A stretch of 64,000 nucleotides of DNA. Origin: Arabidopsis thaliana (taxonomy: Eukaryota > Streptophyta > Magnoliopsida > Brassicales > Brassicaceae). The position numbers and the translations under genes are program-made. The DNA lies in the NCBI RefSeq assembly GCF_000001735.4, contig NC_003074.8, positions 17,863,261 to 17,927,260 on the forward strand. The letters are read 5' to 3'. Of this stretch, positions 12,245-53,092 are shown one piece after another; position 1 is the stretch's first letter; the number at the start of each line of letters is the position of its first letter. Under the pieces are notes generated by a model. It did no database searches. It had not been told where the DNA came from and saw nothing but the letters and a program-made list of their open reading frames with translations.

Positions 12245-12944
12245 GCAAAGGTGTGGGTCGTTGCTTTTTTCGCGCCATGGATCTGGTTTTTTATTTGATT
12301 TTCTTCTCATTTATTGTCATGTTACTCTAATCAATTATTTTGCTTATTCAGTCAACTTCATGGTGTTGTGAATATAAAATATTCGGACTTTTTTTTTCCC
12401 CTTCTTAACTCTTAAGTCACTGTTTTAGCTGACTAAGAACCCTATAATTGACTATCCTACAAATCGAATAATGGGTTTGGTAAATTACAAAATGTTTAGC
12501 CATTGAACCCGCTTGTCATGGTAACGAATTCGATTTTACTGTGTGTAAACAACAATTTGGACTTCAGCTTCAGTTCTTTTAAACTTAAGGAAACTTTTCA
12601 CTAAAGGGTTTTGCTCTCTCTCTCAGGATTAATAGAATAATAGTCATAGTTTTTGGTGAAACATAAATATTCAATGTTGTTACACTTTAAATAGAAACTT
12701 GTACTGACACAAATCACTACACTAATGTTATGATCATTTGTTATAATCTATTACTTCTACTTATATCTCAAAATATAAATGTTTTACATATTGGAGACAG
12801 AATGTTTGAGACGAATTAGGACATTTAAATTTTCATGGAGAATTGTTTGTTGAACAATGTTGTCGTTGTATTTTTGATGAGTATGAATTGGCGGTTCAGC
12901 CGTTTAAAAACCGATTATATACAATGATCATCAAATTTTTGTAA

Positions 12945-13239: not shown

Positions 13240-13310
13240 GTAAGTCCAAAAAAACCACAAATAAAAACTCTTCACAAGAACACGTTTTGATGTACTTGAA
13301 GAATCCAGAC

Positions 13311-14913
13311 ATGATGATCATGTTCTTTCTGTTATGCTCAATAATCTTTGTAGTTACCATCATAATTTTCAGAAAACAGAAGAGAGGGAAGAAAAGAAAC
13401 ACACTTCCGTCACCACCGGGACTACCGTTGATCGGAAACCTTCATCAACTCGGCCGCCACCCTCACCGATCACTATGCTCTCTCAGCCACCGGTACGGTC
13501 CTCTTATGCTTCTTCACTTTGGCCGTGTCCCCGTTCTTGTAGTATCTTCAGCTGAATTGGCTAGAGACGTTTTGAAGACGCATGACCGTGTTTTCGCAAG
13601 CCGGCCACGGTCAAAAATCTTCGAGAAACTTCTTTACGATAAGCATGATGTGGCCTCAGCTCCTTATGGAGAGTACTGGAGGCAAATGAAAAGTGTGTGC
13701 GTCCTCCATCTATTCAGCAACAAAATGGTACGATCCTTTCGAGAAGTGAGAGAAGAAGAGATCAGTCTGATGATGGAAAAGATCAGGAAATCGATTTCTT
13801 TGCCGGTAAATCTAAGCAAGATCTTGGTGAGTTTAACTAACGATGTGATATGTAAAGTTGCTTTGGGACGGAAATACGGTGGTGAAACGGATTTTAAGGA
13901 GTTAATGGAGAGACTAAATAAACTATTGGGGACGTTTAGTGTGGGGAGTTATGTACCTTGGCTTGCGTGGATTGATTGGATCCGCGGTTTAGACTGTCAA
14001 CTAGAAAAGACGGCAAACGATGTTGATAAGTTCTTTGAGAGAGTTGTGCAAGATCATGTCGATGGAAACAGAGATATGACTGATTTTGTGGATGTATTGC
14101 TCGCTATTCAAAGAGATAAGACCGTCGGGTTTGAAATCAACCGTGTTAGCATAAAGGCAATTGTCATGGTGAGGAAACACACTTTTGAATGATACCAATT
14201 CAGATTTATGATGTTTTATTGTGTAATGTTTTTTTTTTTTTACAACATGATGTGTTAGTAAGTATATAACAGTAGTTCTTGTTTTGGTTTTAACTTTTCA
14301 GAATGTTTTTGTGGGTGGTACGGATACATCGTCTACACTTATGGAATGGGCAATGACAGAGCTTCTACGTCATCCAAAGTGTCTGAAAAGACTCCAAGAA
14401 GAAGTCCGCACGATTTGCAAGGATAAATCAAGTGTGTCAGAAGAAGAAATTCAAAACATGAGCTACTTAAAAGCTGTAATCAAAGAGGCACTCAGGCTCC
14501 ATCCTCCACTTCCATTGATGGTTCCTCACGAATCAACACAAGATGTCAGATTAGGAGATCACCACATACCAGCCGGTACACAGGTATTGATCAATGCATG
14601 GGCAATCGGGAGAGAGGCTGCGACGTGGGGACCAGACGTGGAGGAGTTTAGACCAGAGAGGCATTTAGATTCGTCTGTTGATTACCGGGGTCAGGCTTTT
14701 GAACTGATTCCATTCGGATCAGGAAGAAGGATTTGTCCAGCAATATCATTCGCTGTGGTGTTGAATGAGGTTGTTTTGGCTAACTTAGTGCATCGGTTTG
14801 ATTGGAGATTATCAGTCGAATCTACAGAAGATCAGACCGAGGTCGCTGAATCAACGGGTATTGCGATCCACCGCATGTTCCCACTCTACGCCATTGCATC
14901 AAATACTACTTGA
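13311..14913 (+). CDS. CYP71A26: Cytochrome P450, CYP71A26
   Basis: Two exons, 13311-14168 and 14302-14913, with a phase-0 intron, give 489 residues, the normal length for a microsomal plant P450. I start at MMIMFFLLCSIIF, which supplies the ER membrane anchor; an in-frame upstream ATG at 13227 would add 28 residues and break the anchor pattern. Features are: the Pro-rich hinge PSPPGLPLIGNL (about 27-40), I-helix GGTDTS (291-296), ExxR KEALR (E348, R351), the PERF-like FRPERHL, and the heme loop FGSGRRICPA with the Cys ligand at about 431. The heme loop has Ala where the consensus FxxGxRxCxG has Gly. CYP71 enzymes are NADPH-dependent monooxygenases of specialised metabolism; the substrate is not known from sequence. 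It is the first of six tandem copies. Confidence 0.95.
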
Positions 14914-15022
14914 CCAGTTGACCTAGGCATCTTATATATATAGAATCATAGAAATGCTTTGTTCTGTTACGTGTACGATAAACATACACGTTTACTCATT
15001 TCAAATGTGCAACCATAACTTT

Positions 15023-15097
15023 GCGAGTTCTCCACCATATAGCTGTGTTGTTGTTGATATTGCTTGGACTCCACAAAACAAATTACCAATCAGGACG
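15023..15097 (-). pseudogene. PIMT 5'-end relic downstream of CYP71A26
   Basis: The stretch around GTTGTTGATATTGCTTGGAC aligns with the start of PIMT1 exon 2 at about 30505-30580, including the intron-side ACAAATTACCAATCAG tail, and lies in the same orientation as PIMT1. A small insertion and a gap separate the aligned blocks. The rest of the PIMT copy is absent. This is a host-gene duplication remnant. Confidence 0.7.
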
Positions 15098-15721
15098 AAA
15101 AAAAAACAAGTATGTCCAACGTATTTATCAAACTTCTTTTTTAAAAAAAGAAGTAGAATCACAATTAGATCTATTGGTTCCTTTCAAAACGATTATACAG
15201 CTAACTAGGAGATACAGTACTTTCATATTGTGACCGAAACCATCCGAAAAAATGTTCAAGATCTTTTTGTTTCTATTCTGAGCTTATGTTTATATATATA
15301 AAAAAAAAAAAAGGTGGAATGACCCGAAATAATCGTCTTATCTGTATGTGTTTCTAATTTCTATTAGTGTTCAAGCAAAACTATAGGTGGTCTAGTAGAA
15401 CGTCTGATTGTGTTATTTAAAAATTTAGTGTTACTAGTAGTACGTCTAATCATTTTTTGTATTGAATATATAAATTGTGTTATCTTATTTATTATTTAAA
15501 AGCATGATAAAATTTAATATTTGTTATATAATTAATATTGTAGAAATAAATGCAAAGTTGGTTATCATTAGAAAATTGTGATTAATTCGATTTCAAAATA
15601 TACAATTACGTTAAAATCAGATTTATTTAAGATACAAATTTTGGTTGTCGTATTTGTTATATAATTATGTTTAGTTTGTGCATCCATTAATAATTTGCAC
15701 TGTGGATGTATATATTACATA

Positions 15722-15843
15722 AATCCAAAAATTGAGTGGTAATTACGTAAAGTGTAAAGTTGTGCATAAGTCCAAAAGATCAAAAAGAACTTTAAAACTC
15801 ACAAGAATTTTGTGTAAAGAACTTACAGAATCCAGACATGCAA
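15722..15843 (+). pseudogene. Ghost 5' leader of a lost CYP71A copy
   Basis: Matches the CYP71A26 leader: ATTGAGTGG, AATTACGTA, CATAAGTCCAAAAG, CTCACAAGAA, then GAATCCAGACATG ending at the ATG position. Past that ATG the sequence no longer resembles a P450. It lies about 490 bases upstream of the separate CYP71A25 promoter, so it is an extra, truncated copy. Confidence 0.7.
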
Positions 15844-16212
15844 AACCTTTTTACTGGATACCTTTTATGACTACAAAGTAAGGTATTCGAAATATACAAA
15901 TTATGATATTATTGTATTTAAGAAAGTTATTTGAAATATACTAATAAGGTATATAATTTTAAGAGATAAATAATTCTGTGGCTATTAAAAAATCAAACAT
16001 ATAGAAGTAGAAGATGAAATATATTTTTTTTTGGTAAAATATTATTTTTGTTTATTTTATCTTTGAATAGCAAAATGGATTGTTTCAGTTTAATTGTGAT
16101 GTGTGATTGGGTTGTCAGTAATATTGTAGAGATTTCTTTGCTTTTTAGGCATAGGATTTGTCCATTTGAGAGGAAATTTTATTTTGCCCATTAAAGCAAA
16201 GAAAGAAGAAAA

Positions 16213-16264
16213 TCTGAGTGGACCCTAGTAACGTAACATACGTAGAAAAACTTTGATTATATAA
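16213..16264 (+). promoter_or_regulatory. Shared CYP71A leader block, CYP71A25 copy (diverged)
   Basis: CTGAGTGGACCCTAGTAACG and a weakened GAAAAACTTTGATTATATAA replace the GAAACTTGGCTT-TATA form. The ACGTAAC element is shared with CYP71A23. Confidence 0.55.
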
Positions 16265-16333
16265 CCCTGTCCAACAGAACATAAATTAACAAGAGAAATC
16301 TCTAAGAACTGTGAAACCAAAATAATAAAAAAA

Positions 16334-17904
16334 ATGATGATGATGATAATTCTCTTGTGGTCAATAATTTTCATGACCATTCTCTTCTTAAAAAAACAGT
16401 TGAGTGGGAAGAAAGGTAAGACACCTCCGTCACCACCGGGACTTCCGTTGATCGGAAACCTTCATCAGCTCGGCCGCCACACTCACCGATCACTATGCGA
16501 TCTCAGTCGCCGTTACGGTCCTCTCATGCTCCTTCACTTAGGTCGTGTCCCCGTTCTTATAGTCTCTTCCGCGGACATGGCTCAAGAAATCTTGAAGACG
16601 CACGACCAAGCTTTCGCAAACCGCCCACGGTCAAAACTCTCCCAGAAGCTTCTTTACAACAATCGTGATGTGGCCTCAGCTCCTTATGGAGAGTATTGGA
16701 GGCAAATGAAGTCCGTGTGCGTCATTCATCTCTTAAGCAACAAAATGGTACGATCTTTTCGAGATGTAAGAGAAGAAGAAATCACTTTGATGATGGCAAA
16801 AATCCGGAAATCGAGTTCTTTGCCGTTTAATGTAAGCAAGGTCTTGGAGTGTTTGACCAACGATGTGATATGTAGAGTCGCTTTGGGACGGAAATATGGT
16901 GGTGAAACTGACTTTAAGAAGTTAACGGATAGACTAAGCGAGCTATTGGGAACGTTTAGTATAGGGAGTTTTGTACCGTGGCTCGCGTGGGTTGATTGGA
17001 TCCGCGGTTGGGATGCTCAGCTAGATAAGATGGGAAAGGATCTTGATGACTTCTTTGAGAAAGTTGTGCAAGATCATGAAGATGGTGACCGCCGAGATGG
17101 GACTGATTTGATTGATGCATTGCTCAGGGTTAAAAGAGAAAAGAGTCCCGGGTTTGAGATAGAGCGAGTCAGCATAAAGGCAATCACGTTGGTGAGGAAC
17201 AATTAATACTCATTTTTGGATGATACAAATTTTAGATTTTATGATGTTTTAGCATATATAATTTTAGTTCTTGTTTTTTGTTTTTTCAGGATGTTTTTGT
17301 GGGTGGTTCGGACACATCGTTCACGCTTTTGGAATGGGCAATGACAGAGCTTCTACGTCATCCGAAGTCTCTGAACAGACTCCAAGAAGAAGTCCGTACG
17401 ATTTGTAAGGGGAAGTCAAGAGTATCTGAAGATGACATTCAAGGAATGAAATACTTAAAAGCTGTGATCAAAGAGGCACTCAGGCTACATCCTCCATTTC
17501 CAATGATGGCTCCTCATGAATCAACAGAAGATGTTAAATTAAGAGACTACCACATACCAGCCGGTACACAAGTGATGATGAATGCTTGGGCGATCGGGAG
17601 AGAGGTTGCCACATGGGGACCAGACGCGGAGGAGTTCAAACCGGAGAGGCATTTAGATACGTCTGTTGATTTCCGAGGTCAAAACTTTGAGCTGCTTCCA
17701 TTTGGAGCAGGGAGAAGGATTTGTCCAGCAGTATCATTCGCTGTGGTATTGAATGAGGTGGTTTTGGCTAACTTAGTGCATGGGTTTGATTGGAAACTAC
17801 CGGAGGAATCTAAAGAAGACAAAACTGATGTCGCTGAATCCAGCGGTTTTTCGGTTCACCGCGAGTTCCCTCTTTATGCCGTTGCATCACCTTACTTGAC
17901 TTAG
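16334..17904 (+). CDS. CYP71A25: Cytochrome P450, CYP71A25
   Basis: Exons 16334-17191 and 17290-17904 (98-base phase-0 intron) encode 490 residues. The start MMMMIILLWSIIFMTI gives a membrane anchor, followed by PSPPGLPLIGNLHQLG. Key sites are I-helix GGSDTS (291-296), KEALR, FKPERHL and heme loop FGAGRRICPA with Cys at about 431; Ala again replaces the final Gly of the consensus. The I-helix has Ser in place of the Thr of GGTDT. It is the second member of the array, the same way round as its siblings. It is the most diverged in its leader, and no PIMT remnant was seen in its 3' spacer. Substrate unknown. Confidence 0.95.
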
Positions 17905-19263
17905 GCATTTATATATATTAATGCTTTGGTATGTTATGTTGTGGATCTTTCTCTTCATGGATTCTGGTTTTATATATGTGTTTTTCTTCTCTAAGTTGTT
18001 TTCGTTAATTGTTATGTGATTTTAGTTATTTTAGTCAAATCATCTTTGCTCTCTCGCTCACATAAGTTACGTACTCTCACTCTTCCAAATATTTGCTATT
18101 TTACGAAAGTTTCTTTTCATTTTACGAGCGCTAAGAGAATCCACATTGGTTATATCTTTGTAAGTGTATTAAAAATAAATTAAAATTAAATTTAAAGGAG
18201 ACTTCTATTTGGAGGTCTGAAATGTCTTTTTAAAAGACACTATTACACATTTAAAGATATTTTCTTCCTTTTTTCTCAATAATTTTTAATTTAAAAATAC
18301 TCTCAAAGTATCACCGATAAAGATGGTCTTACGTATCAAAATCGGCATAACGTAACGTTTTCAGGATTTTCATGGAAGCATTTGTTATAAAATAATCGAC
18401 TTTTAAAAATCACTCGTTATCGGTTGAAATTCCTATAGCAAAACTACCTCTTCTAGAGGTTACGCCTTTTTTCTCTAGAGTTCGAGAAAACGTTTTGTAA
18501 AATTTGTAGTGTGTTTAGCATTCTTTTCCAGAAAAAAAATTCTTATGAAGAGGATAAAAAGTTCAACGCTAGAAACTGTTCTTCGAGGTAATTACTAAGC
18601 CAAAATCTGGTGATGCTTGGTCAAAAAGGTAATGGATTTAAATGTTATTTTTATTATATTTAGAGGAAATTGTGAATCACTCAACCGAAAGTCCGAAACT
18701 ATTCTTTGAAACGGAAAAAGTGAACGTTATATATTATAAAAAAAAAGATTAAAAATAATGCATTTTTTTTTAGTTAGTTTGGTGGTTTTATTACAAACTA
18801 ACCACATGATTAATAGATATGCCCTGCTGCTATCACACAATTCACAAATCAATGTGACAATAATGCACATGCTTTAGAATTGCCATAAATCCTTAGGCAT
18901 GTGAGTGATTAAAGGATTGAAAACCCCATTGTCCCACTACAAATAGAATAATCTCACATGTACGCAGCACGCGTCTACAATTGACATCCAAGTTAGGTCC
19001 CAACTCTCAAGGAAAACTTAATATTGCCCACATGACTCAAAAAATATTTTGTTTTTAGATGTTATGTTTGTTACGTCTAAATAATTTTAATTCACGTCCA
19101 CAATTTCGTTACTTAGGCACTTTAATTGCCATCAACTAAATAAAAGCTTGGGCTTATGAGAAACTGAAAAGTATAACACATCCATGAGAAAATGTAGCTA
19201 GTGTATGTTTAGAAAACATGTGAAACTGTCTATTCTTGCAAAAATCAATCCCTTTAATAATTG
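17905..19263. other. Spacer CYP71A25-CYP71A24
   Basis: AT-rich, 1.36 kb. I see no PIMT relic and no shared CYP71A leader in it. A weak inverted pair (CATGTGAGTGATT near 18900 and AATCTCACATG near 18950) is the only structure noted. Confidence 0.5.
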
Positions 19264-19295
19264 ATATCCTTCATCAGCTCAGCCTCACCCACACA
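19264..19295 (+). pseudogene. Scrap of P450 coding sequence just upstream of CYP71A24
   Basis: CCTTCATCAGCTCAGCC and the following CACCCACAC match the codons for NLHQLGRHPH found about 70 codons into every gene of the array. Here they lie 35-65 bases before the CYP71A24 ATG, where siblings have leader sequence. Confidence 0.6.
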
Positions 19296-19329
19296 GAAAT
19301 CTAAAACGATTTTCTTAAAAAATCCAGTG

Positions 19330-20874
19330 ATGAAAATGATGATGATGATCATACTTCTCTTATGCTCAATAATACTCATAACCATTCTCTTCTTCAAAAA
19401 ACAGTCGAGAGGGAAGAAGAGCAACGCACCTCCATCACCACCGAGACTTCCTCTGATAAGAAACCTTCATCAGCTCGGGCGCCACCCTCACCGATCATTA
19501 TGCTCCCTCAGCCACCGTTACGGTCCTCTGATGCTCCTCCACTTTGGCAGTGTCCCTGTTCTTGTAGTCTCCTCCGCAGATGCGGCTAAAGACGTTTTGA
19601 AGACGCATGACCGCGTTTTTGCTAGCCGTCCACGGTCAAAAATCTTTGATAAGATTTTTTACAACGGGCGAGATGTGGCCTTAGCTCCTTATGGAGAGTA
19701 TTGGAGGCAAATGAAAAGTGTGTGCGTCCTCCATCTCTTTAGTAACAAAATGGTACGATCCTTTCGAGACGTTAGACAAGAAGAGATCAGCCTGATGATT
19801 GAGAAGATCCGAATATCGAGTTCTTTGCGGATAAATTTAAGCGAGATCCTGGTGAATCTTACAAACAATGTAATATGTAGAGTTGCTTTGGGACGGAAAT
19901 ACGGCGGTAAGACCGATTTTAAAGACTTAATGAAAAGGCTAACGAGGCTACTAGGCGAGTTTAGTGTCGGGAGTTATGTATCGTGGCTCGCATGGATTGA
20001 CTGGATCCGCGGTTTGGATGGTCAACTTATAAAGATAAGCAATGATCTTGATGAATTCTTGGAGAGGGTTGTCCAAGATCATGTAGATGGGGATGGACAC
20101 AAGAATGATTTTGTGGATTTCTTGCTCACAATTGAGAGAGAGAAGAGCGTTGGGTTTGAAATCGACCGGTTAAGCATAAAAGCAATTATCTTGGTAAAGG
20201 GAAGATACGAAAACAAATTTAAATTCACTGATGAGTTAGTATATAACCATAGTTCTTGTTTTGGTTTTCAGGATGTTTTTGTGGGTGATATGGACACAAC
20301 ATACACTCTTTTGGAATGGGCAATGACAGAGCTACTATGCCACCATGAGTGTCTAGACAGACTCCAAGAAGAAGTTCGTATGGTTTGTAAAGACAAATCG
20401 GGTGTATCAGAAGACGACCTTCAAGACATGAAATACTTAAAAGCTGTGATTAAAGAGACACTAAGGCTACATCCTCCACTTCCATTGATGGTTCCTCACG
20501 AATCAACACATGATGTCAAATTAAGAGACTATCACATACCTGCCGGTACACATGTAATGATCAATGCTTGGGCAATCGGGAGAGAGGCTGCGACATGGGG
20601 ACCAGACGCGGAAGAGTTTAGACCAGAGAGACATTTGAATTCGTATGTTGATTACCGAGGTCAGGATACGGAGCTGGTCCCGTTTGGAGCAGGGAGAAGG
20701 ATTTGCCCAGCAATATCATTTGCTGTGGTATTGGATGAGGTGGTTTTGGCTAACTTAGTGCATCAGTTTGATTGGACACTACCGGAGGAATCTACAGAAT
20801 ATCAGACTGATGTCGCTGAATCAACCGGTATGGCGGTTCATCGCATGTTCCCACTCTTCGCCATGACTACTTGA
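19330..20874 (+). CDS. CYP71A24: Cytochrome P450, CYP71A24
   Basis: Exons 19330-20193 and 20272-20874 give 488 residues when the 78-base intron (20194-20271) is removed. The intron is a multiple of three with no stop, so retention would give a 514-residue protein with 26 extra residues just before the I-helix. The GT and CAG borders align exactly with introns of the other five copies, which supports splicing. Departures from the siblings are LPLIRNLHQLG (Arg for Gly in the hinge region) and an I-helix GDMDTT (Asp for the second Gly). KETLR, FRPERHL and heme loop FGAGRRICPA (Cys about 433 in the spliced form) are present. The start MKMMMMIILLL is chosen for the anchor; upstream codons are non-homologous. 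Confidence 0.92.
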   Translation: MKMMMMIILLLCSIILITILFFKKQSRGKKSNAPPSPPRLPLIRNLHQLGRHPHRSLCSLSHRYGPLMLLHFGSVPVLVVSSADAAKDVLKTHDRVFASRPRSKIFDKIFYNGRDVALAPYGEYWRQMKSVCVLHLFSNKMVRSFRDVRQEEISLMIEKIRISSSLRINLSEILVNLTNNVICRVALGRKYGGKTDFKDLMKRLTRLLGEFSVGSYVSWLAWIDWIRGLDGQLIKISNDLDEFLERVVQDHVDGDGHKNDFVDFLLTIEREKSVGFEIDRLSIKAIILVKGRYENKFKFTDELVYNHSSCFGFQDVFVGDMDTTYTLLEWAMTELLCHHECLDRLQEEVRMVCKDKSGVSEDDLQDMKYLKAVIKETLRLHPPLPLMVPHESTHDVKLRDYHIPAGTHVMINAWAIGREAATWGPDAEEFRPERHLNSYVDYRGQDTELVPFGAGRRICPAISFAVVLDEVVLANLVHQFDWTLPEESTEYQTDVAESTGMAVHRMFPLFAMTT

Positions 20875-21032
20875 TTTAGACATTACAGCATATAGATATG
20901 CTTTGTTAGAAGCGTACAATACGCATGTCAGTGGTAAAGAGATCTTAAGATTTGAGTTCTTAAGTAAACTATAGACTAATAGTTTGACTCAAAAAAAAGT
21001 AACCACACTAATTAAGTAAGCCAAGCGGCATA

Positions 21033-21097
21033 ATCAGTTCCCTCGCAATTATCAACGGAATATAACAGATCGATGTTTCCTTCTCAATTAGGCTCTT
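21033..21097 (-). pseudogene. PIMT 3'-end relic downstream of CYP71A24
   Basis: ATCAGTTCCCTC and then ATCAACGGAATATAACA... align with the last codons and 3' flank of PIMT1 (about 29708-29790), in PIMT1's orientation. About 13 bases around the stop are missing and several bases differ. Confidence 0.55.
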
Positions 21098-21340
21098 AGT
21101 ATAAGTTCCACTGTAGACATAAATGAGTAAATATAAGATATAGATAGAGACCATGTATGCATGCAAAACTTAAAAAAAACAAACAGAAATCAATTATATA
21201 TTTTAATTAGGGTGGGATCAGATTAAAACTTCTGGAACTTTAGGATATCCTTTCGATCTTGTAAAATTTTTATAAGATTTTTATCTTCCTATTTTAAGAC
21301 TATATATTAAAAAGTGGAAAAGATTGGATTATATCAACCC

Positions 21341-21440
21341 TAATTCACCGTCTAATTTGTTTTCCTCTTTATGCCATTACATCATCTACTACTTGATTAA
21401 GGCATTATATACATTAAAATGATTTATATTATGTTACTAG
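21341..21440 (+). pseudogene. Ghost 3' end of a lost CYP71A gene
   Basis: AATTCACCGT, then CCTCTTTATGCCATTACATC, CTACTACTTGATTAAGGCA and the trailer ATTATGTTACTAG match the last 15 or so codons and 3' flank of CYP71A21, 22 and 23. No other P450 sequence precedes it, so the body of this copy is gone. Confidence 0.75.
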
Positions 21441-22110
21441 ATCAGAACCCATTTGATACATGGGTTAATCAATAAATGTTTTTTTATAAAGTTTAATAAG
21501 GTTTTTTTGCAGTTTTATCTAAATATTAATAGGCTATGAAAATATAATATGGTGAAGATTTTAAGATTTTATGAAAATATAATAGACTTCTGGAATTTGA
21601 TGCTTTAGTTTTATTACAAAAGCTTGTCTAGAAGACTTGAAGTATTAGACAATATAATTGAGGAAAATGAAAGACAGTAAAACGCTTTTGTTGATGAAAT
21701 CGAAACAATTACCAAATTTCCGAGGCTGAAAAGAGATATGTCAATGCCTTAGATTAGAGGTGAGTTACTTTTTGGTGTGTTTTCACATATTTCTTCAAAG
21801 TTATTAGCTTTGATATTTAAATATTCTACATTTACAAACAAATAGGTGGTAGAATCATACCTAAAATTTAAAAAGTTATTAATATACAAATAAGGACTAT
21901 ATATTTTAGGAGATAAATAGTTTTCTTGGACCTTGTAGCTGTCTAAAATCTAGCAAAATAGGTATTAAAAAAAGTAAAAGATTTCTTTTTTGTTTGGTCA
22001 ACTTACTTGTATTGTGGAGAGATTTTTTACCTTTACTATATAGGATTTGAGAGAATATATATTTAATGCAAATTTACTTTCCTACTATACTTGGGCAAAA
22101 CAGAAGAAAA

Positions 22111-22163
22111 TTTGAGTGGACCCTCGTTACGTAACGCATAGAAGAAACTTGGCTTATATATAA
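22111..22163 (+). promoter_or_regulatory. Shared CYP71A leader block, CYP71A23 copy
   Basis: TTTGAGTGGACCCTCGTTACG and GAAACTTGGCTTATATATAA. The second half includes a clear TATATATAA box about 100 bases upstream of the ATG at 22258. Confidence 0.6.
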
Positions 22164-22257
22164 CGCAAGTGGCGAAGTCCACAAGAAGAACACAAAAAAC
22201 TTAAGAAACTCTTCACGAGAAAAACTTGAAGAACTTAAGAATCCAAGTTTACAAAAT

Positions 22258-23858
22258 ATGATCATGATACTTTTCTTATGCTTAATAATATTGTTCATCA
22301 TAACCATTCTCTTCTTCAAAAAACATAAGACAGTGAACAAAATCATCAACTTTCCATCCCCACCGAGACTTCCGTTGATCGGAAATCTTCATCAGCTTAG
22401 CCAACATCCTCACCGATCACTCTGCTATCTCAGCCACCGTTACGGTCCACTCATGCTCCTCCACTTCGGAAGTGTCCCCGTTATTGTAGCCTCTACAGCA
22501 GAAGCAGCTCGAGACGTTTTAAAGACGCATGATCGCGTTTTTGCTAGCCGTCCACGGTCAAAAATCTTCGAAAAGCTTCTTTACAAGAGCCGTAATATGG
22601 CCTCAGCTCCTTATGGAGAGTATTGGCGACAAATGAAGAGTGTTAGTGTTCTCCATCTCCTCAGCAACAAAATGGTACGGTCCTTTCAAGACGTGAGACA
22701 AGAAGAGATCACTCTGATGATGGAAACGATCCGTAAATCGAGTTCTAAACCGGTAAATCTTAGCAAGATCTTGTCGAGTTTAACTAACGATGTTATATGT
22801 AGAGTAGCTTTGGGACGGAAATATGGTGTTGGAACAGATTTTAAAGAGTTAATAGACAGGCTCATGAGGCAACTTGGTACGTTTACTATCGGGAGTTATG
22901 TACCGTGGCTTGCGTGGACTGATTGGGTCAGCGGTTTGGAGGCTCGACTGGAAAAGACCGCTAATGATTTTGATAAGCTATTGGAGAGAATTGTGCAGGA
23001 TCATGAAGATGGAGACGGCGACAAGACTGATTTTGTGGATGTATTGCTCGCAGCTCAGAGAGACAAGAGTTTCGGGTTCGATATTGACCGGTTAAGCATA
23101 AAAGCAATCGTCTTGGTAAGGGAAAAAATATATATCAAATTCAAATCCAATGTTTTAGACTATTAGTGTAGAACCATGCATTAATTGTTTATGTCTATAA
23201 CCATTATTTGTTTAAGTATATAACCATTAATTGTTTTGGTCTTGATTTCACTTTTCAGGATGCTTTTGTGGGTGGTACAGACACATCCTCCACGCTTGTG
23301 GAATGGGAAATGACAGAGCTTCTACGACACCCAACGTGTCTAAAAAAACTTCAAGAGGAAGTCCGTACGATTTGTAAGGGAAAATCAAGTGTGTCTGAAG
23401 ATGACATTCAAGGAATGGAATACTTAAAAGCTGTGGTCAAAGAGGCACTCAGGCTACATCCACCAGTTCCATTGATGGTTCCTCATCAATCAACACAAGA
23501 TGTTAGGTTAAGAGATAACCATATACCTGCCGGTACGCAGGTTATAGTCAATCTTTGGGCCGTCGGGAGAGAGGCTGCGACGTGGGGACCAGATGCGAAT
23601 GAGTTTAGACCGGAGAGGCATTTAGAGTCGCCTTCTGATTTCCGGGGTCAGGATTTTGAGCTGATTCCTTTTGGAGCAGGGAGAAGGATGTGTCCAGGAA
23701 TATCATTTGCTGTGGTGCTGAATGAGGTAGTCTTGGCTAACTTAGTGCATGGGTTTGATTGGCAATCTATAGACGATGAGACCGATGTTGCTGAATCAAT
23801 CGGTAGTGTGATTCGCCGCATGCACCCTCTTTACGTCATTCCATCATCTACTACTTGA
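22258..23858 (+). CDS. CYP71A23: Cytochrome P450, CYP71A23
   Basis: Exons 22258-23115 and 23259-23858 (143-base phase-0 intron) encode 485 residues. The N-terminal anchor MIMILFLCLIILFIITIL is followed by a basic patch and PSPPRLPLIGNL. I-helix GGTDTS (291-296), KEALR and FRPERHL are present. The heme loop is FGAGRRMCPG (Cys about 431, Gly 433), so this is the only gene of the six with the full FxxGxRxCxG signature; the others have Ala at the last position. The region before the C-terminus is shorter by several residues than in the siblings. Microsomal monooxygenase; substrate not deducible. Confidence 0.95.
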
Positions 23859-24720
23859 TTAAGGCTTATTATTATGTTATGTCTACAATAAACCTGTTCA
23901 TTTGAAAATGTTGTAAGCTAAGATATGTTTGAGATTTTAAAGTTTCGAGTTCCTAATTAAACCAATTTAGAAAGCAAGGTGAGCTTACTTGATTCATTAT
24001 TCTGTACAACAAGCATCATTTTTTTTTTAGATTTTAGATTTTATAACGTTTATATTTTTTTATATTTTAACTTTAAAATATAAATAAATTTGATTACAGA
24101 AAACTGATTAGAGAGCTCTGATTTGGATTAGTCGTGAAAGAGGTGAAAGTATACATCAAAATTTGTTTAAAGTAAAAATCTAATGATTTGTTAAAAAATT
24201 TGAATAACAGGTGATTTTGTTGTATTTAAAACCTCATGGTACAAATGCTTAATCCAATAAGAATTAATTTATCGCATTTGACTTTAATATACGTTCAATT
24301 CCATTAGTTCAGTAGTTTTGCTTGACTCTGCTATTTGTTACTTTGACGTGATTGCATGACTCTCTACCTCACAGCTTGAATTAATGTAAGTGGAAATATT
24401 CTTAGTCTTACTTGGTTGCATTTGTTCTCTCTCTCTCCATTGTTTTGTTGATGAAATTCTTAAATCTCATGATTTTGCCGGGGTTAGGGCTTTACCTTGC
24501 ACCTATCAAGAAATTATTAACGTGAAACGCCTCTTCTTTGCACATATCTAAAAAGAGCAATCCAAATAGTAAAAAGATTAGATGAGAAATCCTAGTCCTC
24601 AAAGAGAACTTGTGCACTAAGACAATTTGAAAGATTCAACGTTTTTTTTTTGTCAAACGTTAAATAAATGAATTTTGAGAAGAATGATAATTATCCATAT
24701 GGGGGAGAGAAATAAGAAAA
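23859..24720. other. Spacer CYP71A23-CYP71A22
   Basis: The left part carries the PIMT 3'-flank segment. The part from about 24250 onward is homologous to 27290-27990 upstream of CYP71A21 (shared TTCAATTCCATTAGTTCAG, TCTACCTCACAG, AAGTGGAAATATTC), marking the boundary of the most recent tandem duplication. Confidence 0.6.
23946..24022. repeat. PIMT 3'-flank segment repeated after CYP71A23
   Basis: GCTTACTTGATTCATT and CTGTACAACAAGCAT match the intact PIMT1 3' flank (about 29660-29708) and the same place after CYP71A22 (26600-26662). Similarity stops in a T-run just before the PIMT coding end would begin. Confidence 0.65.
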
Positions 24721-24770
24721 TTTGAGTGGACAGTAGTTTTGGTCCCAAGAGAAACTTGGCTTCTATACAT
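24721..24770 (+). promoter_or_regulatory. Shared CYP71A leader block, CYP71A22 copy
   Basis: TTTGAGTGGACAGTAGTTTT and GAAACTTGGCTTCTATACAT. It is almost identical to the CYP71A21 copy, including the intervening GGTCCCA. Confidence 0.6.
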
Positions 24771-24931
24771 AAGTCCAAAAGAGGTACACGAAATTCTGGC
24801 TTACTAGAGGTATTTTGTGGTTCGTTCACTCTATTTCCATATGACTCAGATCATCTAAGTTCAAAAAGAAGACCACAAATTCTTAGAAACTCTTTACTAG
24901 AAAATCTTGACGAAACTTGAAGAATACAAGC

Positions 24932-26489
24932 ATGGAATCAATGATCAGGATAATTCTGCTAAGCTTGATAATCTTCATTACCATCCTCTTTTTCATAAAA
25001 CAGAAAAAAGGGAAGAAAAGCAACACACCTGCGTCACCACCGAGACTTCCGTTGATAGGAAACCTTCATCAACTCGGTCGCCACCCTCACCGATCACTAT
25101 GCTCTCTCAGCAATCGTTACGGCCCTCTTATGCTCCTTCGTTTTGGCCTTGTCCCCGTTCTTGTAGTCTCTTCCGCAGATGTGGCTCGAGATATTTTGAA
25201 GACGTATGACCGCGTTTTTGCAAGCCGGCCACGGTCAAAAATCTTTGAGAAAATATTTTATGAGGCCCGTGATGTGGCCTTAGCTCCTTATGGAGAGTAT
25301 TGGAGGCAAATGAAGAGCGTGTGCGTCCTCCATCTCCTCACCAACAAAATGGTCAGATCCTTTCGAAACGTGAGACAAGAAGAGATCAGTCTGATGATGG
25401 AGAAGATCCAGAAATCAAGTTCTTTGCAAGTGAATCTAAGCGAGCTCTTGGGGAGTTTAACTAACGATGTGATATCTAGAGTTGCTTTGGGACGGAAATA
25501 TAGTGATGAAACGGATTTTAAGGAGTTAATGAAAAGGCTCACGAAGCTACTGGGCGAGTTTTGTGTGGGGACTTATGTACCATGGCTTGCATGGATTGAT
25601 TGGATCAGCGGTTTGGATGGACAACTAAAAAAGACAGGTAATGATCTTGATGAATTCTTGGAGAAAGTTGTCCAAGATCATGAAGATGGCGACGCACAAA
25701 GGACTGACTTTGTGGATGTATTGCTCAGAATCCAGAGGGAGAAGAGCGTCGGGTTTGAAATCGACCGGTTAAGCATAAAGGCAATCATCTTGGTAAAACA
25801 GAAAAGAAGAAAATAAATTCATATTCAATGATGTTTTAGTATATAACCGTAGTTCTTGTGTTTTGGTAACTTTTCAGGATGTTGTTGTGGGTGGTACGGA
25901 TACATCGTACGCACTTATGGAGTGGGCAATGACAGAGCTTCTTCATCGCCCAGAGTGTCTGAACAGACTCCAAGAAGAAGTCCGTACGATTTGTAAGGGA
26001 AATTCGAGTGTATCAGAAGATGACATCAAAGACATGAACTACTTAAAAGCTGTGATCAAAGAGACTATGAGGCTACATCCTCCACTTCCATTGATGGTTC
26101 CTCACGAATCAACACAAGATGTCAGATTAGGAGATTACCACATACCTGCGGGTACACAGGTAATGATCAATGCTTGGGCGATCGGGAGAGAGGCTGCGAC
26201 GTGGGGACCAGACGCGGAGAAGTTTAGACCGGAGAGACATTTAAATTCGTCTGTCGATTTCCGAGGTCACAATTTTGAGCTTATTCCATTTGGAGCAGGG
26301 AGAAGGATTTGTCCAGCAATATCATTCGCTGTGATCTTGATTGAGGTGACTTTGGCTAACTTAGTGCATCGGTATGATTGGAGATTACCGGAGGAATATA
26401 TAGAAGATCAAACCAATGTCGCTGAATCAACCGGTATGGTGATTCACCGTTTATTCCCTCTTTACGCCATTGTATCATCTACTACTTGA
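24932..26489 (+). CDS. CYP71A22: Cytochrome P450, CYP71A22
   Basis: Exons 24932-25792 and 25878-26489 (85-base phase-0 intron) encode 490 residues. I start at MESMIRIILLSLIIF; five upstream in-frame codons lack an ATG. The anchor, ASPPRLPLIGNLHQLG, I-helix GGTDTS (292-297), KETMR, FRPERHL and heme loop FGAGRRICPA (Cys about 432) are intact. It is closest to CYP71A21: the two share the MESM start, about 700 bases of upstream sequence and many residues, with a duplication period of about 3.05 kb. Substrate unknown. Confidence 0.95.
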
Positions 26490-27751
26490 TGGATGCATTA
26501 TACATAAATGCTTACTATTATGTTATGTCTACAATAAACATGTTTACTCATTTGAAAATGTTGCTACCAAAGAGAAGTTTGAGATTTTAAAGTCTCAAGT
26601 TCCTAAACTAATTTAGAAAGCCAGGTGAGCTTACTTGATTTATTGTTATGTTCAACAAGCATCATTAGTCCCTTCTCAAGTGGGCTTCAAGAACACAAGC
26701 TGATATCAAGAACACGCATACCCGGTTTCAAATTATTTCCAATCATTAGACGATTGCGCATAATAGCACTGCGCAGAGGTCAGTTCGAGTTGACTGTAAA
26801 TTAGTAGCTTGATTGGTATATTTAGTTCAAATTTTGTGTTTTTTTTTTGTGTGATGTTATTAAATATTCTGATAAGTAGTTTAGTGGCTTTGTAGACCAT
26901 TATTGAAACCAGATTGAGGGATAGCTATATACTAAAGTAGCTAACTAAAACTCACAACAATAATAAGTGTTGCAATATTAACGACCAAAGCAACGACTTT
27001 GAGGAATCCAACACTTTCAAATGACGCGTTAATAATAAAATTAAAAACACTATAGAAAATCTCCAAACTTAGAGAGAAACTAAAACACGAACCAATTTGA
27101 TATTTTTTCCTGAGTGATTCGTTCTTAATTTCTCGTTAATGAGCTTGATTGGTTTGTTTAGTTCAACTTTGTGTTATTTACTAGTTACTACTTAGGGGTT
27201 GTTATTGAATTAATGTATTTGAATTTGCAGTTTTCTTTGTGGGTTTTATTTTATCAAATACATAATTGAATAACAGTGGATATCGCCTTGACTTTAAAAC
27301 ACATTCAATTCCATTAGTTCAGTAGTTTTGCGTGACTATGCTATTTGTTACTTTGACGTGCTTGCATGACTGTCTACCTCACAGTTTGAATAAGTATAAG
27401 TGGAAATATTCATAGTTTTACTTGGTTGTATCTGTTCTCTCTCCATTGTTATGTTGATGACCTTCTTAAATGTCATGATTTTCCAGGGTTTAATTAGGGC
27501 GCCTTACCTTGAAAGAAATTGGAGAAAGAAATTATAAACGTGAAACTCCTCTTCTTTGCGCATACATAAAAAGAGCAATCCAAATCGTAAAAGGATTAGA
27601 TGAGAAACCCTAGAGAACTTGTTCCTCAAAGAGAACTTGTTCACTAAGACAATTTGAAAGATTCAACGTTTTTTTTTTCTTTGTCAAACTCTTAATAAGA
27701 ACGTGTAATAGTTGAATTTTCTTATCCATGTGGGGCAGAGAAATAAGAAAA
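26490..27751. other. Spacer CYP71A22-CYP71A21
   Basis: Holds the CYP71A22 3' flank, the collapsed PIMT pseudogene, about 500 bases of unassigned AT-rich sequence, and from about 27290 the upstream block duplicated from before CYP71A22. Confidence 0.55.
26661..26768 (-). pseudogene. Collapsed PIMT pseudogene downstream of CYP71A22
   Basis: Three short blocks of the PIMT1 locus survive in their original order: the 3' coding end (26661-26690, with CTTCTCAAGTGGGCTTCA), the exon 2/3 junction region (26702-26734, with ATCAAGAACACGCATACCCG), and the 5' flank (26750-26768, GACGATTGCGCATAATAGC). About 1 kb of gene has been reduced to about 110 bases. This is a host gene remnant, non-functional. Confidence 0.75.
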
Positions 27752-27809
27752 TTTTGAGTGGACAGAGTTTTGGTCCCAGGAGAAACTTGGCTTCTATAAT
27801 TGTATACAT
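27752..27809 (+). promoter_or_regulatory. Shared CYP71A leader block, CYP71A21 copy
   Basis: TTTTGAGTGGACAGAGTTTT, GGTCCCAGG and GAAACTTGGCTTCTATAATT, as before CYP71A22. Confidence 0.6.
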
Positions 27810-27980
27810 TAGTCAAACAGAAGAAAACGAAATTCTGGCTTACTAGAGATATTGTGTGGTTCATTCTGTATGCAATCTCTAATTCCATATGACTCAGCTC
27901 ATCTAAGTTCTAAAAGAAGACCACAAAATTCTTAGATACTCTTTACAAGAAAATCTTGACGAAACTTGAAGAATACAAGC

Positions 27981-29544
27981 ATGGAATCCATGACAATGAT
28001 AATTCTGCAAAGCTTAATAATCTTTATTACCATCCTCTTTTTCAAAAAACAGAAAAGAGGGAAGAAAAGCAACACACCTCGGTCACCACCGAGACTTCCA
28101 TTGATCGGAAACCTTCATCAACTCGGCCACCACCCTCACCGATCACTATGCTCTCTCAGCCACAGATACGGCCCTCTCATGCTCCTCCATTTAGGCCGTG
28201 TCCCAGTTCTTGTAGTCTCTTCCGCCGACGTGGCTAGAGATATTTTGAAGACGCATGATCGCGTTTTTGCTAGCCGTCCACGGTCAAAACTCTTCGAGAA
28301 GCTATTTTATGACGGGCGTGATGTGGCCTTCGCTCCTTATGGAGAGTATTGGAGGCAAATAAAGAGTGTGTGCGTCCTCCGGCTCCTCAGCAACAAAATG
28401 GTCACGTCCTTTCGAAATGTGAGACAAGAAGAGATCAGTCTGATGATGGAGAAGATCCAGAAATCAAGTTCTTTGCAAGTGAATGTAAGCGAGCTCTTGG
28501 GGAGTTTAACTAACGATGTGATATCTAGAATTGCTTTGGGACGGAAATATAGCGGTGAAACAGATTCTAAAGAGTTAATGAAAAGGCTCATGATGCTAAT
28601 GGGCGAGTTTAGTGTGGGGACTTATGTACCATGGCTTGGATGGATTGATTGGATCTCTGGTTTGGATGGACAGCTAAATAAGACAGGCAATGATCTTGAT
28701 GAATTCTTGGAGAAAGTTGTTCAAGATCATGTAGATGGTGACGGACAAAGGACTGATTTTGTGGATGTGTTGCTCAGAATTCAGAGAGAGAAGAGCATCG
28801 GATTTGAAATCGACCGGTTATGCATAAAGGCTATCGTCTTGGTAAAGGGATAAGAAGATCTCATATTCATATTCATTGATGTTTTAGTGTATAACCGTAG
28901 TTCTTGTTTTTTTGGTTTTGATCGCTTTTCAGGATGTTTTAGTTGCTGGTACGGATTCATCGTACGCACTTATGGATTGGGCAATGACAGAGCTTCTACG
29001 TCACCCAGAGTGTCTGCGCACACTCCAGGAAGAAGTTCGTACGATTTGTAAGGGTAATTTGAGTGTATCAGAAGAAGACATTCAAAACATGAGCTACTTA
29101 AAAGCTGTAATCAAAGAGACAACGAGGCTACATCCTCCACTTCCATTGTTGGCTCCTCACGAATCAATACAAGATGTTATATTAGGAGATTACCACATAC
29201 CAGCCGGTACACAGGTAATGATCAATGCTTGGGCAATCGGGAGAGAGGCTGCGACGTGGGGGCCAGACGCAGAGAAGTTTAGACCGGAGAGACATTTAGA
29301 TTCGTCTGTTGATTTCCGAGGTCACAATTTTGAGCTGGTTCCATTTGGAGCAGGGAGAAGGATTTGTCCAGCAATATCATTCGCAGTGGTCTTGATTGAG
29401 GTGGCTTTGGCTAACTTTGTGCATCGGTATGATTGGAAATTACCGGAGGATTCTAAAGAAAATCAAACCAATGTCGCTGAATCAACCGGTATGGTGATTC
29501 ACCGTTTATTCCCTCTTTACGCCATTGCATCATCTACTACTTGA
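27981..29544 (+). CDS. CYP71A21: Cytochrome P450, CYP71A21
   Basis: Exons 27981-28841 and 28933-29544 (91-base phase-0 intron) encode 490 residues. It starts at MESMTMIILQSLIIF. The hinge is RSPPRLPLIGNLHQLG. I-helix is AGTDSS (Ser for the conserved Thr next to Asp), then KETTR, FRPERHL and FGAGRRICPA (Cys about 432). It is the last of the array and is followed after only 164 bases by the convergent stop of PIMT1. That shared 3' end is the arrangement whose remnants recur in the earlier spacers. Substrate unknown. Confidence 0.95.
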
Positions 29545-29708
29545 TGGAGGCATTATATATAAATGGTTTATTATGTTTAGTTGTACCAAAACAAGTTTAG
29601 TCATTTGAGAGTTTTACTCACAGTGATTTGAGTTCTTAACTAACTATGCTAATTTAGAAAGGCGACTGAGCTTACTTGATTCATTCATCTGTACAACGAG
29701 CATATTCA

Positions 29709-30715
29709 TCAGTCCCCTCTCAGCTGGGCTTCACGGCTAGTCAAAGGAACATAACGAACTGAAGTTTCATCCTTGATGCTAACAGAACCATCTGAGTTCT
29801 TATCCACCACTTGCAGATCTTGGAATATGTTCCCAACCGGAATCACCAGTCTCCCACCGGGCTTCAACTGATCAATCAACGCCTCTGGGATCTCCGGTGC
29901 TGCTGCTCCGACGTGAATAGCATCATACGGAGCAAACTCAGCCCATCCTTGCCTCCCATCTATTTTAAAACCATCAAGAAACCAGCAATGTAAAAACAGA
30001 AACACCAAAGAAATCTCAAAAACTTGAACTGATGCTCACCACCAACATGAACAGCAAGAGACCCTTCTTTCAGAAATGGCGAAGCAGCACTCGCTTCAAT
30101 ATTCTTAACAGAAGAAGCCACCAATTCAGGAATATGTTCCACACCAATAGCACGCCCTTCGGTTCCAACCATAACCGCAAAGCAAGCAGTTAAGTACCCG
30201 GTCCCTATCAAAATTCATCATATTCAAAAGCAAGAAGAAGAATGTACAAAACTAATTCAAGAAGAGAAAGTAAAACAAACCCGAGCCAACATCAAGTACA
30301 CGCATTCCCGGTTTCAAATGTTTTTCAAGAAGTTGAAGACACATTGCATGCATATGAGGAGCTGATATAGTCACATTATAACCAATAGACATGGGACTAT
30401 CAACATAAGCAGAGGAACGATCTGTTACAAATACGCCTCTATCCACAGCCTCCATAGCTTTAGCAACTTCATCTGAAGTAACTATACCATGATTTTGCAG
30501 ATTCTCAACCATAGCTTTGTTCTTGTTGATACTACTTGGACTCCAGAATTGCTACAGAATCAATTACAAAACAGAACCAATAATTAAATCTGACAATCGT
30601 AGTGATCTCAATCGAAAATTCTCAAGTATTGAATCGATTGGGCAATGGAAATCGCAATTACTTATCTTGATTCGAATCGAATCGATTACACATCGGAGAG
30701 AAAGAGTACCTTCAT
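29709..30715 (-). CDS. PIMT1: Protein-L-isoaspartate O-methyltransferase
   Basis: Four coding exons on the - strand, 30715-30710, 30551-30281, 30204-30040 and 29959-29709, encode 230 residues. The first coding exon holds only Met-Lys. It transfers a methyl group from S-adenosylmethionine to isoaspartyl residues, starting repair of age-damaged proteins, notably in seeds. Motifs are [15 protein letters not shown] near the N-terminus, the substrate-side [20 protein letters not shown], the SAM-binding motif [30 protein letters not shown] and [12 protein letters not shown]. It corresponds to At3g48330. Its 3' end faces CYP71A21, and fragments of this gene are scattered through the P450 array. Confidence 0.95.
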
Positions 30716-31150
30716 CTTTTGTGAGAGAAATATTCCGGTGAGCAGAGAGAAGAAGGGTTCAATGGAGGCAAAAGCAGTGTGAGAGAGAGAAGAACTGATC
30801 GGAGAGGAATGGGAAAGTGATGACGAATGCGCATAATAGCGGAAATTGCACGCAACAAGAGTAAAGGGAATCATTATCGTGCGCGTGTTTTTGGGGAATT
30901 TTATTTTGCAACGTTCCCCACAGCTTTTTTATATTTTAGTATTTCTTATTTGTATCCCCAAACTATTTTTCTTTATCAGTTTGGCCCAAAATGTTTGTTT
31001 TTGCTACTTTATGGTCTTTTTGTTTGCAACATTTCTCTATCTTATTTTAGCATTTATCCCATATTTTTTACCTTTTGTATATATGGCCCAAAATGTCTGT
31101 TCTTTGAGGTTTTGAATTTTTTTGCACATCACAGATAACTGAGCAAAGTT
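30716..31150. other. PIMT1 5' region to tRNA gene
   Basis: Includes the PIMT1 5' UTR and promoter with GCGCATAATAGC near 30829, then pyrimidine-rich AT-rich sequence up to the tRNA gene. The open stretches here are low-complexity Phe/Leu/Tyr runs, not credible genes. Confidence 0.55.
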
Positions 31151-31222
31151 GCCCTTATAGCTCAGTGGTAGAGCGTCAGTCTTGTAAACTGAAGGTCCGT
31201 AGTTCGATCCTGCGTGAGGGCA
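31151..31222 (+). tRNA. tRNA-Thr (anticodon UGU)
   Basis: A 72-base cloverleaf. The acceptor stem GCCCTTA pairs with TGAGGGC and has discriminator A. The D arm contains AGCTCAGTGGTAGAGC (A box). The anticodon loop is CTTGTAA with anticodon TGT flanked by pairing CAGT/ACTG. The T arm contains GTTCGATCC (B box). No intron. CAA lies just upstream at about 31144, as is common at plant Pol III starts. Confidence 0.95.
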
Positions 31223-31224
31223 CC

Positions 31225-31231
31225 TTTTTTT
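31225..31231 (+). terminator. Pol III terminator of the tRNA gene
   Basis: A run of seven T residues begins three bases after the tRNA end. Confidence 0.85.
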
Positions 31232-31397
31232 AATTTCTCATCACCAAAATGGAACCTGAAATGTAGTCGTTTAGAAGTTTATAACGTAAAAACACAAAAC
31301 GTCGTTTTGAAGATTCAGACTCCACAAAAACCTCAATGATTACGAGAGAACACACGAGCACGACCGTCGTAGGCTTCGCTTTAGGGTTAATCTGAGT

Positions 31398-31463
31398 ATG
31401 GCGAATCTTATGCACAGATTTCTCAGGAACCAATCATGTTTAAGAGCAATCCCAAGGCTTTGA
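31398..31463 (+). other. Small reading frame with presequence-like composition
   Basis: Twenty-one codons (MANLMHRFLRNQSCLRAIPR...) with five Arg and no acidic residue, like a mitochondrial targeting start, followed by a stop. It lies in a 3.2 kb gap just after the tRNA. It may be the start of an alternatively spliced or lost gene, or chance. Confidence 0.2.
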
Positions 31464-52476: not shown

Positions 52477-53092
52477 CAATGTCTTGTTGAACCCAACAAT
52501 CTCCGACGTCCGACGAGTTTATATGAGGCATATGACCACTATGGTATACTATTTTTCTTTTAGTTTATTTTTTGTTATGTAATATCTTAATTGTTTTGAA
52601 ATTTTAATTGTTTTGTATATCGTATGTATATTTTACAATATCTTTTTGTTTCATGGATAGATGAGGAAGTGACAAAGTAGAAGAAGTGAGCAAAGAGAAC
52701 ACCCGTGGCAAAGCGTTAAAAGACTGAAAAATGAAATTTTGTAGAAGAAGAAATAATATAACATCGAGACACGATGAGACTAACTTTTGAATCAACTTCA
52801 TTGTAGTAAAACTTTTGTGGCTACGACCTTAGAAATGAATCTATTTTATTTATTTATTAATCATTGAATATGTGTAGTATTTTTATTTTTTTACAGCCTA
52901 AGCCTTTGTATTTGTATTATCTAAAATAGTTCTGTTAATTTTGGAAGACTGTTAATTTGGTGTTCATTTCATTCAACTACTGTCCTCTCACAATATCAAA
53001 TGACAAAACTAAATCATCAAATACATGAAACATGTTAATATTGTTTTCATAAAGGATAATAAACCACTTATATGGGCTTATATGACTCTATA

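Follow-up and report, generated by a model that had tools for sequence, protein, structure and literature searches.

In the class III region of the human major histocompatibility complex (MHC), the P450 gene CYP21 is repeated together with its convergent neighbour, tenascin-X, as part of the RCCX module (STK19-C4-CYP21-TNX), according to the available text of one account (PMC8362596). Degenerate copies lying between the members of tandem arrays help to delimit the repeat unit in birth-and-death evolution, as the accessible part of another paper describes it (PMC2822764). Here we examine a 64-kb stretch of Arabidopsis thaliana DNA (contig NC_003074.8, positions 17,863,261 to 17,927,260; 'the window', the single stretch of a single genome from which all our evidence comes), in which six P450 genes on the forward strand, CYP71A26 to CYP71A21, precede a single intact methyltransferase gene, PIMT1, which lies on the reverse strand and encodes a protein-L-isoaspartate methyltransferase (PIMT). 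In angiosperms two PIMT isoforms stem from an ancestral gene duplication, and PIMT1 is AT3G48330, in the available text of PMC12510314.

The names CYP71A21 to CYP71A26 are adopted from a first-pass annotation of this DNA, which had proposed that a P450 and the convergent methyltransferase gene were duplicated several times as a unit, and that the extra PIMT copies were later deleted while the P450s were kept. In what follows, genes are abbreviated by number (A26) and each spacer takes the name of the P450 that it follows. Judging from the sequence, we find it very probable that duplication took in a P450 along with its convergent PIMT, and that internal deletions then removed the surplus PIMT copies. 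Coordinates of all features are collected in Table 1.

Results

PIMT remnants between the P450 genes

The five spacers were aligned to PIMT1 (29700-30850) without anchoring, with 1000 dinucleotide shuffles each, and 122 control searches covered 61 overlapping windows outside the array on both strands. The A26 spacer gave a best local score of 67 and the A22 spacer one of 53; none of the 1000 shuffles reached either (maximum 37 in each case), and the top score among the control searches was 34. Fragments of PIMT between the P450s, as first proposed, are thus real in two spacers that stand above all shuffles and all real-DNA controls, while the same unanchored comparison leaves the A24, A23 and A25 spacers at shuffle level, with 658, 918 and 990 of 1000 shuffles as good. 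Chance likeness among AT-rich spacers would fit the A24 block, which alone and unanchored is no better than shuffles, but as an account of the whole it is close to negligible given the empty shuffle tails for A26 and A22 and an E value of 3e-16 for the full A26 block. When the PIMT1 protein was compared with the window in six frames, the pieces after A22 and A26 came out as the two best non-self matches, and both lie on the PIMT1 strand. In a first BLAST search with 29400-31500, the top match outside the array was 54881-54929, which resembles 30899-30947 (E 0.009), beyond the PIMT1 gene.

The A26 remnant has a core at 15012-15076, and a looser search extends it to 15012-15246 with 63% identity over 261 columns; the 5' part noted earlier at 15023-15097 is therefore genuine, its limits having been drawn too short. 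One of its peptides, WSPSNINNNTA, aligns with an 11-residue stretch of PIMT1 at a score matched by none of 1724 control stretches. A single step of about 0.87 kb leads from the 3' flank into exon 2; the middle of the gene is gone, and its 5' end abuts a portion of the P450 3' flank. Dating of the A26 copy by the identity of its intron 1 was set aside, as unrelated pieces (500 of them) average 73% identity when realigned, against the 70% observed; in this comparison the score alone is informative (203, where 2000 draws gave 161 at most).

After A22, three ordered blocks had been annotated at 26661-26768, and three are indeed found at 26662-26767, colinear with PIMT1, with two steps of 544 and 493 bp that drop the remainder. 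Block 1 is weak as a peptide (29 of 1724 control stretches as good) and strong as DNA (P 0.0005 in all four scoring schemes of the anchored tests, which used about 450 real-DNA control windows). Block 3 is the sole site in the window, on both strands, within four mismatches of its PIMT1 counterpart other than the original itself. The same spacer carries a direct repeat of about 39 bases (26806-26844 and 27142-27179, 87% alike) around some 300 bases.

Weaker traces follow A24 and A23. When the A24 spacer is anchored (21020-21125 against 29700-29820), P is 0.0045, 0.0175, 0.0050 and 0.0005 under the four schemes, with 1, 5, 1 and 0 of 450 real-DNA windows as good, and its peptide score is matched by one of 1724 control stretches. 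The block is likely to be a PIMT remnant on this evidence, weaker than those after A26 and A22; the 3' part annotated at 21033-21097 is borne out by the anchored and peptide tests and lacks significance unanchored. The copy of the PIMT1 3' flank that precedes it is firmer (anchored P 0.0005-0.0015 over the four schemes; 0, 0, 0 and 1 of 450 windows as good). After A23 the 3' flank alone remains, as had been claimed (P 0.0005 in four of four schemes, 0 of 449 control windows as good), and the spacer is otherwise at shuffle level. The place of A22's PIMT pieces is occupied there by 24021-24255, with a 36-base inverted repeat at 24054-24089.

Passenger sequence beside array members is thus strong after A26 and A22, weak after A24 and confined to the 3' flank after A23. 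The stretch from P450 stop to PIMT1 stop recurs after A22, A23 and A24, and partly after A26; after A25 it is firm to 17942 only, and looser schemes carry it to about 18049-18079 (whole stretch P 0.003-0.024). Where PIMT pieces are kept, they come after the P450-PIMT 3' flank in correct order and orientation, and all pieces identified run in PIMT1's direction, as the first-pass annotation had stated. Filler DNA at double-strand breaks occurs in plants, and the pieces are short, as ectopic inserts (by such filling or by transposon capture) unrelated to the P450 duplications might be. This origin is nevertheless highly improbable in view of the constant orientation, the constant place relative to the P450 3' flank, the correct internal order, the PIMT1-order join to the P450 3' flank after A22, A24 and partly A26, and the low scores obtained elsewhere in the window.

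Probable whole copies and separate deletions

Because A22 keeps both ends of the gene, and because the interior parts kept after A22 and A26 differ, we infer that the source of each trace held a whole or nearly whole PIMT. These two observations, with the A26 5' end adjoining the P450 3' flank, are what support co-duplication of PIMT followed by deletion. If breakpoints had instead fallen inside PIMT, so that the units never held the whole gene and a truncated copy was born with each P450, in the manner of TNXA and STK19B in RCCX, the presence after A24 of the PIMT 3' end only, and after A23 of its 3' flank only, would follow readily. Such an origin is quite improbable, however, since A22 retains the stop-codon end together with 19 bases of 5' flank, and since in A26 the middle is absent and a portion of the P450 3' flank runs straight into the 5' end; both look like products of internal deletion and not of end truncation.

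The A22 and A26 deletions are taken to be separate because the retained interior parts do not overlap. This bears on another possibility, that a single PIMT copy degenerated at an early stage and was copied through the array with the P450s in that state, with one loss and not several. Early decay is probably true of the A22 and A23 spacers; as a general account it is unlikely, since the interiors kept after A26 (30486-30737) and A22 (29706-29733 and 30278-30328) are mutually exclusive, so that any shared source would have to contain them all and later deletions would still be needed, and since the two spacers have no deletion breakpoint in common.

Several observations weigh against co-duplication of whole PIMT copies. 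Taken alone, the A22 and A26 peptide matches to PIMT1 have window-wide E values of only 0.14 and 0.57. The A24 piece gives a weak signal, the A25 spacer carries no PIMT coding trace in its comparison with PIMT1, and the wholeness of the copies is drawn from two spacers. The descent of the pieces from PIMT1, not PIMT2, is read from their position.

The CYP71A22-CYP71A21 pair

The synonymous divergence (dS) between A22 and A21 is 0.195, against 0.37-0.56 in the other 14 P450 pairs, and the coding tree makes A22 sister to A21 with 100/100 support, a grouping of A22 with A23 being rejected (p 2e-7). In the last 300 coding nucleotides 41 sites link A22 with A21 and 8 with A23. Beyond the stop codon the relation reverses: 8 sites link A22 with A21 and 28 with A23 (P 0.001), a pattern that all 12 alignment runs reproduce. 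The change of partner falls at 26499-26525, shortly past the end of the A22 stop codon at 26489. When outgroups are included, 4-6 derived flank sites are shared by A22 and A23 and 0-2 by A21 and A22 (8 runs). For the A22-A23 flank the score is 543, which exceeds the values simulated at the coding divergence of 0.49 (132-353, the upper figure being the 97.5% limit) and falls among those simulated at 0.195 (412-644). A Fisher test on earlier site counts (88:28 against 10:30, P 2e-8), hand-entered and with the two sites 26525-26526 assigned downstream, was set aside for the counts 41:8 against 8:28.

The flank, promoter and coding evidence together make it probable that a single recent tandem duplication, its unit running from P450 3' tail to P450 3' tail, produced the present arrangement. 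Between the two proposed copies of this unit, the 3' flank is 85% and the promoter 82% identical counting gaps (0.89 and 0.90 without them), in rough agreement with the dS of 0.195; for older copies, alignment identity is saturated. Because the A22 3' flank resembles that of A23 while the A22 coding sequence is sister to that of A21, one older PIMT copy is probably the source both of the pieces after A22 and of the 3' flank left after A23. The proposal of a duplicated P450-PIMT unit thus stands as regards co-duplication and deletion of the extra copies, with the A22 and A23 traces probably counted as one copy and not two. That the A23 spacer was recopied in this way is a good bet.

There is also evidence that counts the other way. 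The A22-A21 flank score of 428 is still just within the range simulated for dS 0.195; approximately unbiased (AU) tests on a tree of the five short 3' flanks favour neither A22 with A23 nor A22 with A21 (p 0.305 and 0.449); and flank identity with gaps excluded is 0.890 for A22-A23, 0.844 for A21-A23 and 0.816 for A22-A21. Most of the 28 flank sites are not demonstrably derived and could be changes confined to A21, and 9 of the sites at which A22 equals A23 cluster within the 11 bases 26525-26535. A simple duplication that gave A21 and A22, with rapid change in the flank of A21, may therefore be the alternative. The A22/A21 promoter identity of 0.90 without gaps also exceeds the mean of 0.84 simulated on the flank for dS 0.195.

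Loss of P450 and PIMT copies

Between A24 and A23 lie the 3' end and the start of the 3' untranslated region (UTR) of a P450 without its body (21343-21435), so that a seventh P450 has been lost too. In three of six loose tail comparisons, run without controls, the match extends to 21492-21494. Other P450 coding pieces outside the six genes, apart from the 21343-21401 tail, were weak matches only and were not used: 52871-52933 (E 0.002), 16029-15920 in reverse (E 0.006) and 21645-21547 in reverse (E 0.29).

Loss was therefore not limited to PIMT, whereas the earlier claim was that PIMT was lost selectively while the P450s were kept. Kept and lost copies number 1 and 3 for PIMT (the weak A24 copy included) and 6 and 1 for P450, giving a crude, non-significant one-sided P of 0.09 from a hand-set table in which related copies are treated as independent. 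Selective loss of PIMT is thus plausible but unproven. A stronger version, which we consider distinctly unlikely, would make the P450 3' tail and the adjoining PIMT 3' flank a repeated crossover site, shared as a junction by the A22/A21 duplication and the extra tail at 21343, with each P450 gain bringing a PIMT copy and dosage selection removing the surplus PIMT each time. If selection did remove surplus PIMT copies, this locus would amount to a modest natural experiment on gene dosage.

Layout of the locus

Each of the six P450 genes has an open, two-exon spliced frame with a Pfam p450 match on exon 1. Because dN/dS, the ratio of nonsynonymous to synonymous divergence, is 0.22-0.38 in 15 of 15 pairs, the P450s appear to have been retained under constraint. 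The PIMT1 exons were placed by hand at splice sites; the spliced frame is open, the introns are GT-AG, and four coding exons give 230 residues, of which residues 12-224 form a complete PCMT domain (Pfam PCMT, E 3.3e-92). Its best solved relative is a protein-L-isoaspartate O-methyltransferase, PDB 1i1n (E 3.5e-65).

Table 1. Genes, remnants and proposed duplication units at the CYP71A-PIMT1 locus (window coordinates; CDS, coding sequence)
Feature	Position	Strand	Structure or PIMT1 counterpart	Evidence
CYP71A26	13290-14913	+	exons 13290-14168, 14302-14913	open spliced frame; Pfam p450, exon 1
PIMT remnant after CYP71A26	15012-15246	-	exon 2 start, all of intron 1, exon 1, some 5' UTR; 30486-30737	
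CYP71A25	16334-17904	+	exons 16334-17191, 17290-17904	open spliced frame; Pfam p450, exon 1
CYP71A24	19330-20874	+	exons 19330-20193, 20272-20874	open spliced frame; Pfam p450, exon 1
PIMT1 3' flank copy after CYP71A24	20939-21032 (widest)	-	29607-29704	
Probable PIMT remnant after CYP71A24, coding 3' end	21028-21117 (widest); core 21052-21079	-	29700-29817	
P450 3' end and 3' UTR start without body, between CYP71A24 and CYP71A23	21343-21435	+		E 3e-15 against CYP71A21 tail
CYP71A23	22258-23858	+	exons 22258-23115, 23259-23858	open spliced frame; Pfam p450, exon 1
Proposed copy 1 of latest tandem unit	23859-26489	+	A23 3' flank, spacer, promoter, CYP71A22	
PIMT1 3' flank copy after CYP71A23, without coding part	23928-24020	-	29604-29706	
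CYP71A22	24932-26489	+	exons 24932-25792, 25878-26489	open spliced frame; Pfam p450, exon 1
Proposed copy 2 of latest tandem unit	26490-29544	+	A22 3' flank, PIMT pieces, promoter, CYP71A21	
PIMT block 1 after CYP71A22, C-terminal codons and stop	26662-26689	-	29706-29733	anchored P 0.0005, 4/4 schemes
PIMT block 2 after CYP71A22, exon 2 end	26692-26742	-	30278-30328	E 4e-7; 10-residue peptide match; 0/1724 peptide controls
PIMT block 3 after CYP71A22, 5' flank	26749-26767	-	30822-30840	18/19 identical; anchored P 0.0005-0.0035
CYP71A21	27981-29544	+	exons 27981-28841, 28933-29544	open spliced frame; Pfam p450, exon 1
PIMT1, protein-L-isoaspartate methyltransferase, intact	29709-30715	-	CDS exons 30715-30710, 30551-30281, 30204-30040, 29959-29709; 230 aa	

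The left neighbour of the array is a protein kinase gene on the reverse strand (10802-11498; Pfam Pkinase, E 6.6e-18). A tRNA-Thr (TGT) gene lies at 31151-31224, just past the PIMT1 5' flank, and the stretch beyond about 30840 has no spacer match at E 0.01. At the same threshold, the region upstream of CYP71A24 (within 17905-19329) gives no promoter-type match to the upstream regions of the other five P450s. A comparison of nine stretches (the spacer gaps, the A25 spacer, the left flank, and PIMT with its 5' flank) in 36 pairs and on two strands, 72 in all, gave two matches with z above 4. The likeness of 17948-17991, after the CYP71A25 tail, to 12268-12308 in the left flank of the array may mark a junction or be due to chance and was not used (score 42, against a maximum of 40 in 400 dinucleotide shuffles; in a looser alignment 286 of 400 were as good). 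A weak match of 21128-21185 to 30992-31056 reversed was likewise left aside.

Discussion

Homologous PIMT pieces, not identical from spacer to spacer, lie between these P450 genes in constant order and orientation, and the resemblance of A22 changes partner just after its stop codon. From this we infer unequal crossing over, copies that were once complete, and the number of rounds. Very probably, tandem duplication or unequal crossing over multiplied an ancestral convergent pair, a P450 on the forward strand and a PIMT on the reverse strand, as one unit. In at least two places (after A26, and in one copy now seen after both A22 and A23), and probably in a third (after A24), the PIMT copy would then have disappeared through internal deletions of about 0.5-0.9 kb. 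Purifying selection would have preserved the P450s, while the single surviving PIMT copy, PIMT1, stands at the array's end. Most recently there was probably another tandem duplication, joined within the P450 3' tail, which would have copied the A23-side spacer with its PIMT pieces, the promoter and the next P450 to give CYP71A22 and CYP71A21.

Among the matches listed by a literature search (titles and the beginnings of abstracts, with few subscription papers covered), none dealt with the duplication history of this array. The locus illustrates clearly, if in an ordinary way, how gene arrays grow and decay; the process is known, and this local instance of it is well supported. Its interest is that the relics of a passenger gene reveal the duplication unit, and probably its junction too, from a single genome; by the same token, gene counts in tandem P450 arrays conceal both lost neighbours and lost members. 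The array relics described in the available text of PMC2822764 are those of the arrayed gene itself, whereas here they are mostly of a passenger gene, with one P450 relic besides. PIMT1 belongs to the protein-L-isoaspartate methyltransferase family, like the plant PIMT1/PIMT2 pair, but the PIMT copies at this locus are local by-products of the growth of a P450 array and not of the PIMT1/PIMT2 duplication.

The nearest analogue that we found appears to be the human RCCX module, as portrayed in the available text of PMC8362596. In both, a P450 is duplicated with its convergent 3' neighbour, and the extra neighbour copy is a broken remnant; unequal crossing over reshapes RCCX and is proposed here to have reshaped the CYP71A array. 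An RCCX-like junction at the P450 3' end would correspond to the switch at 26499-26525, near the A22 stop codon, but the AU tests on the flank alone favour neither grouping (p 0.305 and 0.449). Segments of RCCX are very similar to one another and differ in copy number from person to person, whereas the six P450s here have diverged. In RCCX, according to the same text, STK19B is only a 3' end and TNXA is a truncated pseudogene with a 120 bp deletion; in the CYP71A array, unlike RCCX, what is left of the methyltransferase copies is short, and the damage consists mainly of large internal deletions.

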